Shown here piece after piece: positions 4,288-7,602 of a stretch of 33,954 nt of DNA (position 1 is its first letter; each line of letters opens with the position of its first letter). The position numbers and the translations under genes were made by a program. The DNA is from Meiothermus rufus DSM 22234 (GTDB lineage Bacteria; Deinococcota; Deinococci; Deinococcales; Thermaceae), in NCBI RefSeq assembly GCF_000423425.1, contig NZ_AUHY01000030.1:1-33954 (forward strand), written 5' to 3'. The notes under the pieces are model-generated. The model searched no databases. It was not told where the DNA came from and worked only from the letters and a program-made list of their open reading frames with translations.

Positions 4288-4911
4288 ATGCCGCACGGGC
4301 AATTCCTCGAGTTCTTGTCCTGGGCTGGCCTTCTGGCCTTCGGGGCCTCAGGCGCCTTGGCAGCAGTGCAAAAGCGCTTCGACCTGGTGGGTATTGTGGT
4401 GCTCACCGGGGTCACCGCCATGGGGGGTGGGGCCGTCCGGGATGTGCTGGTAGGCTCGCTACCCGCGGCCTCGCTGCGCAACGAGGCGGTGCTGTGGATG
4501 GTCTTTGTCCTGGCCCTGGGGGTATGGCGCTTTCACCGCCGCATAGGCCGGCTCGAGCGCCCCATCTACTACCTGGACACGATAGGCATGGGGTTGTTCG
4601 CCGCTTTGGGGGCCGAGCGGGCCTTGGCCTTTGGCCTGGGCTTCTGGGGCAGCGTTTTTGTGGGCACGGTCTCGGGGGTGGGTGGGGGTGTCCTGCGGGA
4701 TGTCCTGGCCGGGGAGATACCCGGCATCTTCTACCGTAACCGCGACCTCTACGCCTCGGCAGCAGCGGGCGGGGCCGCGGTGGTTTTCCTGGTCTACACC
4801 TTCCTACCCTTCTATTCGGCCTTAGCGGTGGTGCTGGGGGCTTTGGTGGCCATCGCCCTGCGGCTTTCGAGCCGCTGGCTGGGCCTGGGCCTTCCTGGGC
4901 CGCGGGACTAA
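4288..4911 (+). CDS. TRIC/UPF0126 family membrane channel
   Basis: A 207-residue, very hydrophobic protein with two UPF0126 repeats. The first contains GASGALAAVQKRFDLVGIVV and AMGGGAVRDVLVGSLP; the second contains GVGGGVLRDVLAGEIP. About six to seven membrane segments are visible. Prokaryotic members are trimeric TRIC-type cation channels (YicG family); the ion is not predictable here. The start lies 2 nt after the ispF stop, suggesting cotranscription. The stop TAA overlaps the convergent truD stop by 4 nt. Confidence 0.85.
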   Translation: MPHGQFLEFLSWAGLLAFGASGALAAVQKRFDLVGIVVLTGVTAMGGGAVRDVLVGSLPAASLRNEAVLWMVFVLALGVWRFHRRIGRLERPIYYLDTIGMGLFAALGAERALAFGLGFWGSVFVGTVSGVGGGVLRDVLAGEIPGIFYRNRDLYASAAAGGAAVVFLVYTFLPFYSALAVVLGALVAIALRLSSRWLGLGLPGPRD

Positions 4912-5996
4912 GGCCCGGCCTCCTCTAGCGCTTCATCCTCGAGCCCACCCTCCTCGGGGTTGCGCTTCATCACCTCCCGCAATACCGCGGTGGCATAGGC
5001 CCCTTTAGGTAGGAAGAAGCTGAGCCAAAGGCCCTCCGGGCTGGCCTCTACCCCCCAGTCGCGCAAGGGAAAGCGGATCAGGCGGCGGTCGCCCCGGCGG
5101 GCGGCAAAGTCCTGGCGCGAAAGGCCATAGCCCTGCAAAACCTGGTCCTCCAAAACCCGGGCTGGCCCCTGGGCCTCGCGGTACTTTTTGCCAAACAAAG
5201 GACCCGTAGCGCTGATCTCAAAGCGCTGGGCCCGGGGGTTCTCGGCCGCCGCATCTTGTACCACGAACTCCCCTCCGGTGTCGTGTTTCTTGGCCACATC
5301 GCCCTCGATCACCTGGTCAAACAGGCCCATCTCCAAGCGCAGCGCCAGCCAGTGGTTGAACAGCAGGCTTTGCAGGCTGGCCGAAAGGAACTTCTTCAGC
5401 CAAGGTGGGCTGTGCAGCCGGCCTTCCTTGAGCAGCCGATAGCCCCTAATCGGGTTCTGCCCCCCGAGGCCAAAGCGCTGGGGCCCATAGTAGTTGGGCA
5501 CCCCCTGCTGGGCCAGCCGATGCAGGATGGTCTCTGCTCGGGCTAAAACCTGAGGCGCCTCGGGGCAGCGTAGAAGGATACGAAAGCGGTTGCCCAAAAG
5601 GTGGCCTACCCGCAGCTTGTGAGGGTGCAAGGCCGCCTCGAGCACCCGCACCCCAGGAAGCTCATATAGCACCTCCAAGCGGGACTGGTAGCGGGCTGGA
5701 AGGCTAAACCACTGTCGGGTAAGGGCGTGTTTGTCCTTAAGGCCGGCTACCCCTATCTGGGCCTCACCTATGCCCAACCGGTCGCGCAGAAACTCGAGCA
5801 CCGCCCGGGTGGTCAGCCCCTCCTTCTCGATGTGCACGAACAAATGCTCGCCCTGGCCGGCTGGGCTGTAGGCCGGCACCTCGTAGACCTGAAAATCGCG
5901 GGGCTGCTGGCGTATGCGCCCTTCCACCCCAGGCAGCTCAGGGGTTAGATAGGGGTAGGCGTTGAAGTCGAAGCGCAGTTCAGGAAGCTCAAGCAT
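4908..5996 (-). CDS. truD: tRNA pseudouridine(13) synthase
   Basis: A 362-residue TruD, which isomerises U13 of tRNA to pseudouridine. The key motif GVAGLKDKHALTRQWFSLP holds the catalytic Asp (about residue 88). The N-terminal RQQPRDFQVYEVP, a central FRILLR, NYYGPQRFG and a TruD insertion domain complete the family pattern. I choose ATG 5996 (MLELPELRFDF), which has GGAG 5 nt upstream; a longer frame to 6038 would run into the divergent promoter. A -10 TACAAT (6013-6018) lies 16 nt before the ATG. It is divergent from the TilS-TadA gene, so two tRNA-modification genes share one 49-nt regulatory gap. Confidence 0.92.
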   Translation of the reverse strand: MLELPELRFDFNAYPYLTPELPGVEGRIRQQPRDFQVYEVPAYSPAGQGEHLFVHIEKEGLTTRAVLEFLRDRLGIGEAQIGVAGLKDKHALTRQWFSLPARYQSRLEVLYELPGVRVLEAALHPHKLRVGHLLGNRFRILLRCPEAPQVLARAETILHRLAQQGVPNYYGPQRFGLGGQNPIRGYRLLKEGRLHSPPWLKKFLSASLQSLLFNHWLALRLEMGLFDQVIEGDVAKKHDTGGEFVVQDAAAENPRAQRFEISATGPLFGKKYREAQGPARVLEDQVLQGYGLSRQDFAARRGDRRLIRFPLRDWGVEASPEGLWLSFFLPKGAYATAVLREVMKRNPEEGGLEDEALEEAGP

Positions 5997-6012
5997 ACAT
6001 TCTCCACCGCCG

Positions 6013-6018
6013 ATTGTA
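6013..6018 (-). promoter_or_regulatory. -10 box of truD
   Basis: TACAAT on the minus strand, 16 nt before the truD ATG, giving a short leader that includes GGTGGAG. No clear -35 is visible. It is nested with the divergent TilS-TadA promoter. Confidence 0.5.
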
Positions 6019-6032
6019 GGGGCAAAACCCGT

Positions 6033-6038
6033 TAGCAT
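6033..6038 (+). promoter_or_regulatory. -10 box of tilS-tadA, leaderless type
   Basis: TAGCAT, then 7 nt, then GTG 6046. The spacing places +1 on or next to the start codon and favours GTG 6046 over GTG 6040. Confidence 0.55.
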
Positions 6039-6045
6039 AGTGACC

Positions 6046-7602
6046 GTGGACCCGCAGGACTTCGCTGCGCTCGAGGCCCGTTTTGCCCATCACCTGACCC
6101 GGCTGGTGCCCGAAGGAAGCCTGGTGGCTGCTGTTTCAGGGGGTGGGGATTCGGTAGCCTTGCTCTTGCTCCTGACCGCTACCCCACGCCAGGTGGTGGT
6201 GGCCCACCTCGACCATGCGCTGCGCCCGGAGTCGGCAGCGGAGGCCCGCTGGGTAGAGGCCCTGGCCCGCCGGCTGGGGTATGCCTTCGAGTCGGATCGG
6301 ATCGAGGTAGCCCGGATCGCCCAGGAGCGAGGTGAGAACCTGGAGGCTACCGCACGGGAACTACGCTATGTCTTCCTGGCCAAGGTGGCCAAAAAACATC
6401 GGGCCCAGGCTGTACTGACCGCCCACACCGAGGACGACCAAGCCGAAACGGTATTGTTGCAGCTTGTACAGGGCACCGGGCGGGGGCTAGGCATACGGCC
6501 CAAGCGGGGCAAGGTGGTGCGGCCCTTGCTGGAAATAAGCCGCAGTACCCTACGGGCCTACCTCCGGCACAAAGGCCAGGACTGGCTCGAGGATGTGAGT
6601 AACGCCGATGTCTCGATGGATCGCAACTACCTGCGTCTGGAGGTCTTTCCCCGGCTCAAGGCCCGCTTTCCTCAGGTCAATACCACCCTGGCCCGCTTTG
6701 CCGCCATCTCCCAGCTCGACGACGAGGCCCTAGACCCCCTAGCCGCGCAAATTCTGCTACGCGATGGGCGCTGGCCCTGTCCAGCCTACCGGGTAGCCCC
6801 GCTATTGCAGGCCCCCAGCGGGCTGCGCCGCCGGGCCTTGCGGCAGATGCTCGAGCACATCCAGCTACGGCCCGAGACCGCCTGGATTCTCCAGCTCGAG
6901 CGGGCGCTACAGGGCGAAGCCTTCACCCTACCCGAAGGCTGGCAGGTCCGCCGCCGCGACGGTACCCTGTTTCTGATCCCGCCCACGGCCACGGCCTTCC
7001 CCCCCTGGCGCGGCTCCAGGCTGCCCCAGCCCGGCGACCAGATCGAGCTGCCCCAGGGCCGGATGCGGCTGGTAGATTTTCTAGCCGAGCACGGTGTACC
7101 TCCCGAGCTCAAGCAGGTCTGGCCCGTGCGAGCGGTGGGACAACAGGTGCAGGAGGTATGGAACCTCTGGCCCGAGGAAGAGGACCTCGAGCACATGCGC
7201 AGTGCTCTGGCGCAAGCCCAAAAAGCCTTCAAGCAAGGCGAGGTGCCCATTGGTGCGGTGGTGGTCTGGGATGGGGAGGTGCTGGCCCAGGCCCACAACC
7301 AGGTAGAGCAGAACCAAGACGCCACCGCCCACGCCGAATTCATCGCCCTAAAGCAGGCCTTAGCCCTCGAGCGAAGCAAGGTGCTGCCGGGGGCCACTGT
7401 CTACGTAACCCTCGAGCCCTGCCCTATGTGCTTCGGTGCCCTGGCCGAGGCCCAGGTGCGGCGGGTGGTCTACGCGGTGGAAAACCTCAAGGCCGGAGCG
7501 GTTACGATCCACCGCCTGAACCCCCCCTTTGCCTGGGAAGGAGGCTGGCTCGAACGCGAGTCGGCCCGGCTGCTGCGTAGCTTTTTCGCCCAGAAGCGCT
7601 AG
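6046..7602 (+). CDS. tilS-tadA: TilS-TadA fusion: tRNA(Ile)-lysidine synthase / tRNA adenosine deaminase
   Basis: A 518-residue two-enzyme protein. Residues 1 to about 380 form TilS, which makes lysidine at C34 of tRNA-Ile(CAU). It has the PP-loop VSGGGDSVALL (about 29-39), HLDHALRPES, TAHTEDDQAETVLLQL, NYLRLEVFPRL, and a C-terminal domain with RLPQPGDQIEL and VPPELKQVWPV. From about residue 383 follows a complete TadA-type deaminase: GEVPIGAVVV, zinc/catalytic HAE (His429), and PCPMC (Cys459, Cys462), ending LLRSFFAQKR. TadA makes inosine at A34 of tRNA-Arg(ACG). The frame is continuous and both active sites look intact. No Shine-Dalgarno is seen; the GTG start is set by the -10 spacing. Confidence 0.92.
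   Translation: MDPQDFAALEARFAHHLTRLVPEGSLVAAVSGGGDSVALLLLLTATPRQVVVAHLDHALRPESAAEARWVEALARRLGYAFESDRIEVARIAQERGENLEATARELRYVFLAKVAKKHRAQAVLTAHTEDDQAETVLLQLVQGTGRGLGIRPKRGKVVRPLLEISRSTLRAYLRHKGQDWLEDVSNADVSMDRNYLRLEVFPRLKARFPQVNTTLARFAAISQLDDEALDPLAAQILLRDGRWPCPAYRVAPLLQAPSGLRRRALRQMLEHIQLRPETAWILQLERALQGEAFTLPEGWQVRRRDGTLFLIPPTATAFPPWRGSRLPQPGDQIELPQGRMRLVDFLAEHGVPPELKQVWPVRAVGQQVQEVWNLWPEEEDLEHMRSALAQAQKAFKQGEVPIGAVVVWDGEVLAQAHNQVEQNQDATAHAEFIALKQALALERSKVLPGATVYVTLEPCPMCFGALAEAQVRRVVYAVENLKAGAVTIHRLNPPFAWEGGWLERESARLLRSFFAQKR

Follow-up and report, generated by a model that had tools for sequence, protein, structure and literature searches.

A TilS-TadA fusion unites two tRNA position-34 enzymes in all sampled genera of the Deinococcota

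In the Meiothermus rufus DNA analysed here, one gene encodes both TilS and TadA, two enzymes of the tRNA wobble base. The product is very probably a bifunctional wobble-base enzyme that was fused once and whose halves act independently; we infer both activities, dimer formation and a benefit of the fusion. With ATP and lysine, the TilS half would turn C34 of tRNA-Ile2(CAU) into lysidine, while the TadA half would deaminate A34 of tRNA-Arg(ACG) to inosine, the two reactions proceeding independently, each on its own tRNA. The genes appear to have been joined once, early in the Deinococcota, and never to have separated since. Catalytic residues of both halves are invariant in the family, and the protein encoded in the window (the whole stretch of 33,954 nucleotides that was analysed) evolves without relaxed constraint. 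Three features count against the bifunctional reading: the TadA half scores below the cut-off for E. coli-type TadA, it lacks the otherwise conserved Asp/Glu at position 108, and a species-specific tRNA-Ile(UAU) could reduce the need for lysidine.

What the gene represents is a domain fusion, at the level of a phylum, between two enzymes already known, and an Asn signature at position 108 adds some interest. An earlier note on this DNA had observed the fusion, correctly and with good support in this analysis; the Asn-108 signature was absent from it. Within the literature searched (open-licence, with subscription journals largely outside), no paper was found that describes or assays a TilS-TadA fusion, nor any description of a near-fixed Asn-108 throughout a phylum in TilS-fused TadA.

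The gene and its neighbourhood

The tilS-tadA gene lies on the forward strand at 6046..7602. A single reading frame of 518 codons opens at GTG 6046 and closes with the stop codon ending at 7602. Its 518-residue product bears Pfam and NCBIfam matches to TilS and Pfam matches to TadA, together with the HAE and PCPMC motifs that the earlier note had read. The start is placed by comparison with congeners, in which starts and upstream stops align, the frame being closed by a stop shortly upstream of the start in most of them. GTG 6040 is an alternative start, and a TTG start at 5962 would give a longer frame that overlaps truD.

The neighbouring truD (4908..5996, reverse strand) is divergent, with ATG 5996 as its likely start and 6038 as a possible one. 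This divergence had been pointed out before; the window's genus and several further genera conserve it, whereas none of the Thermus-type genomes checked showed truD next to the fusion gene. The intergenic region (5997..6045) spans about 49 bp, and a sigma-70 scan of it found no consensus pair. A TANNNT-type -10 element, TAGCAT, lies a short way before the GTG start (6033-6046) with no clear Shine-Dalgarno sequence, so the tilS-tadA transcript could be leaderless.

Domain organisation

The N-terminal PP-loop ATPase domain of TilS comprises residues 1-205 (6046..6660; this and all the following features are on the forward strand). Pfam PF01171 matches residues 26-198 of the fusion (E 3e-48), and the NCBIfam model TilS_N (TIGR02432) reaches 164.9 bits, above its cut-off of 93.6. 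The PP-loop motif SGGGDS (residues 31-36, 6136..6153) is conserved in the family. Next come, in the structure model, a helical, substrate-binding CTD1 (residues ~206-312, 6661..6981) and a compact CTD2, or TilS_C (residues ~319-372, 7000..7161). A short linker, placed by model and alignment at residues ~373-378 (7162..7179), leads to TadA.

Sequence models for the C-terminal TilS domains fall below threshold in the fusion, with 13 bits of 21 for PF09179 and 14.3 of 20.2 for TIGR02433. An AlphaFold2 model built with 36 sequences (mean pLDDT 91.6, pTM 0.73) gives the order N-domain, helical CTD1, compact beta/alpha CTD2 at residues ~332-371 and then TadA, whose first helix begins at residue 379. 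Foldseek searches with this model retrieve the TilS structures 2e21 (Aquifex) and 3a2k (Geobacillus) at E ~1e-20; CTD1 is matched by both, and the C-terminal domains also fall within the 3a2k alignment. The earlier description of a full TilS therefore rests on structure: both C-terminal domains are present in the model, although their sequence models are sub-threshold.

The TadA adenosine deaminase domain occupies residues 379-518 (7180..7599). Over residues ~378-487 it matches MafB19-deam (PF14437, residues 379-487, E 6e-33) and dCMP_cyt_deam_1 (PF00383, E 4e-27), and Foldseek finds the TadA fold in 2b3j (S. aureus TadA with RNA, E 1e-15), 7cph and 1wwr at E 1e-14 to 1e-15. The HAE zinc/catalytic motif (residues 429-431, 7330..7338) is invariant among 77 fused TadAs, as are both Cys residues of the PCPMC zinc motif (residues 458-462, 7417..7431). 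Against the E. coli-type TadA equivalog NF008113 the fusion reaches 100 bits, under a cut-off of 150 that serves as a threshold for naming and not as a biological definition.

Distribution and origin

The fusion was matched in 99 of 111 Deinococcota genomes, which cover all 31 of the 31 genera in the set; its named records are Meiothermus and Thermus, and none of the 111 is identifiable as Deinococcaceae. Frames were read for 78 fused proteins, and in all of them a single frame spans both enzymes. The earlier note had proposed a comparison across Deinococcus-Thermus and had supposed that Thermus relatives carry similar fusions; the same arrangement was found in every genus sampled, named Meiothermus and Thermus records included. 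The only split case is locus L217 (G074:C1:528600-531600), where the frame is broken between TilS and TadA in a genome that is 87% complete, through either a sequencing error or perhaps a true fission. In the 12 genomes with no match a convincing TilS is missing too; what was found there amounts to fragments and to pieces of RibD-like or other deaminases. Natural separation of tilS and tadA is disfavoured for these, since both halves are missing, and assembly gaps are the likelier cause.

Beyond the phylum, a family profile applied at E 1e-80 found no fusion among 1,045 genomes from three further phyla, namely those of a Chloroflexi (251), an Acidimicrobiales (396) and a Paradesulfitobacterium (398) record; at this threshold the profile recovered 7 of 8 divergent members as a positive control. 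Ten outgroup genomes were examined closely, and each has its TilS match and its TadA match in different frames. Viral and plasmid collections yielded no TilS-TadA fusion. In a tree of the TadA domain, a branch with an SH-aLRT of 95 sets the 60 fused rows apart from the others. Because the three further phyla yielded no fusion and the fused TadAs group as a single clade, one old fusion event, early in the Deinococcota, is the simplest and likeliest reading.

The linker from TilS to TadA in the window protein measures about 7 residues. From the TilS GD motif to the TadA HAE motif, Thermaceae and one sister family have a spacing of 96-97. Most others have 103-112, while a single case is shorter (88) and two are longer (137, 152); for some loci the motif search took another site or none. 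This spread fits an arrangement that is usually close, not obligatorily rigid.

Why the halves remain joined

The earlier note had raised the idea of channelled wobble editing, which does not hold: lysidine is formed on tRNA-Ile2 and inosine on tRNA-Arg, and the product of neither half is the substrate of the other. As the two halves use different tRNAs, channelling of the usual kind is impossible; the halves could be linked only by being co-expressed, by being co-localised or by sharing a surface that binds tRNA. TadA forms dimers in characterised relatives, as do the Aquifex and Geobacillus TilS enzymes. Any benefit of the fusion would most likely come from fixed 1:1 co-expression and joint oligomerisation rather than from substrate channelling.

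A purely neutral join is a substantial possibility, though short of probable. The stop between two adjacent genes would have been lost in the ancestor of the phylum, and both halves would work while the join itself has no functional value. Neither a single origin nor the use of different tRNA substrates requires a selective story, and in two genomes the linker has lengthened by ~50 residues. On the other hand, linker length is otherwise narrow, and no convincing fission appears in the 99 genomes with a match, which span ~40% identity, although re-splitting essential genes may be hard. The likeliest reason for the join is either co-expression with joint oligomerisation or plain inertia.

Position 108 of the TadA half

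Val478-Glu479-Asn480 of the window protein (7477..7485) align with A106-R107-D108 of E. coli TadA, with the E. coli sequence as the reference for position numbers. Asn occupies position 108 in 76 of 77 fused Deinococcota TadAs, that of the window included, whereas standalone TadAs of other phyla carry Asp (66/74) or Glu (6/74) there, together 72 of 74. Val at the A106 position is found in 21 of the 77, again including the window protein. A loop of ~6 residues after E. coli position 112 (window ~7499, after residue 484), present in other TadAs, is missing in Thermaceae and one sister family. D108N was the founding mutation of the adenine base editors and A106V the second.

These residues raise the possibility, which we consider unlikely, that the TadA half has changed or widened its substrates through Asn-108 to other tRNAs, other RNA or single-stranded DNA, and that it depends on the TilS half to bind tRNA. 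By the same improbable account, the fused TadA of the Deinococcota would have a naturally evolved, altered pocket (Asn-108, with Val-106 in part of the phylum). Besides tRNA-Arg(ACG), this pocket may accept mRNA, single-stranded DNA or the anticodon loops of further tRNAs, TilS making up for lost tRNA binding. The contrast in residue 108 between fused and standalone TadAs speaks for such a change, as does the occurrence of Val at A106. In S. aureus TadA the Asp equivalent to D108 bonds the 2′-OH of U33, and D108N opened TadA to DNA. A review also proposes that natural Asn-bearing TadAs might act on single-stranded DNA (PMC10586758). However, Asn at this position is already natural in 6 of 54 TadA orthologs, which have no known DNA activity (PMC9880001), so the residue is in itself not new; moreover, when E. 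coli TadA was engineered to carry just Val and Asn, its editing was no more than marginal (PMC9880001). The Asn-108 of the fused TadAs is one inherited event and not repeated evidence of evolution, and alone it shows no changed substrate.

Sole copies and substrate tRNAs

The bifunctional reading draws further weight from the rest of the genome (2.74 Mb, 99.99% complete), in which no other PP-loop match passes the cut-off and no other TadA occurs. A search for separate copies of tilS or tadA, suggested by the earlier note, found none; the other matches read as the GMP synthase GuaA (C5), RibD (C27) and a small cytidine deaminase (C24). In relatives, the other matches read as GuaD-like or other deaminases. 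Several Deinococcota genomes carry such further deaminases (L230-L241), which look either GuaD-like (SCEPCPMC..AIYWAR) or otherwise unlike TadA.

Both cognate tRNAs are encoded. A tRNA-Ile2(CAU) gene (L016), which we identify by its likeness to E. coli tRNA-Ile2, is distinct from the elongator and initiator Met CAU tRNAs, and tRNA-Arg(ACG) is present (L022) together with tRNA-Arg(CCG). No tRNA-Arg(UCG) is among the 37 tRNA genes recovered, a list that is incomplete, since Lys, Asp and Phe tRNAs are not on it; their genes probably lie in assembly gaps despite the completeness rating. In the window's long ORFs, picked mechanically, AUA is rare and CGN common: ATA accounts for 37, CGT for 43, CGC for 328, CGA for 41 and CGG for 269 of 9,949 codons. 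With no other TilS or TadA in the genome and both cognate tRNAs present, both halves are presumed active.

The genome also holds a well-formed, canonical-looking tRNA-Ile(UAU) gene outside the window (C9:32195-32271), between a ribonucleotide-reductase-like and a superoxide-dismutase-like ORF. None of 17 congeners gave a significant match to it. A tRNA-Ile(UAU) takes over the TilS route in Mycoplasma mobile and also in B. subtilis once tilS is deleted (PMC3711424). AUA may therefore be read in two ways here, by tRNA-Ile(UAU) and by tRNA-Ile2 with an apparently intact TilS, and the species-specific tRNA could lessen the need for lysidine in this genome. The earlier statement that one protein would control AUA decoding is to be qualified to this extent, as tRNA-Ile(UAU) could read AUA without lysidine. 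Relaxed constraint on TilS from the extra tRNA is ruled out by the normal relative rates of the window protein.

It is very improbable that one half is catalytically dead and serves the other as a tRNA-binding module, an arrangement for which there is general precedent only: the catalytic motifs of both halves are kept across the phylum, and each half is the genome's only copy with its cognate tRNA present. Practically negligible is an assembly or frameshift artefact that joined two genes; the earlier note had named a frameshift as grounds for rejecting the fusion, and such an artefact is refuted by the same unbroken frame in every sampled genus and in dozens of separately assembled genomes, among them named records of Meiothermus hypogaeus and Thermus arciformis.

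Significance and comparison with known systems

TilS and TadA are essential in most bacteria studied. Their fusion joins two position-34 enzymes that set codon meaning throughout the sampled genera of a phylum, and offers a clean test case for why enzymes with different substrates remain joined. The near-fixed Asn-108 makes the phylum a natural comparison, in thermophiles, for how TadA discriminates RNA from DNA, and the fused TadAs are a possible source of base-editing deaminases.

With known TilS enzymes (Aquifex aeolicus 2e21/1wy5, Geobacillus 3a2k and E. coli MesJ 1ni5) the fusion shares the PP-loop domain, the motifs and, in the structure model, CTD1 and a CTD2-like domain. It differs from them in its sub-threshold C-terminal models and in the TadA domain at its C-terminus. 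With known TadA enzymes (Aquifex 1wwr, S. aureus 2b3j and E. coli 1z3a) the fused TadA shares HAE, PCxxC, the conserved Asn at E. coli N46 and the fold; unlike them, it is joined to TilS, carries Asn at D108 and falls below the E. coli equivalog cut-off, and in Thermaceae and one sister family it has a shorter loop after position 112.

The evolved TadA of adenine base editors (ABE; TadA-8e, 6vpc) has the same fold, and its core Val and Asn positions occur naturally in the window protein. The partner here is TilS and not Cas9, most of the other evolved positions examined differ, and DNA activity of the fused TadA is hypothetical. A TilS/HprT bifunctional protein of Listeria, annotated in two Listeria records of the plasmid collection, likewise joins TilS to an enzyme with an unrelated substrate. 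Its partner is hypoxanthine phosphoribosyltransferase, which, unlike the TadA of the Deinococcota fusion, is no tRNA enzyme.
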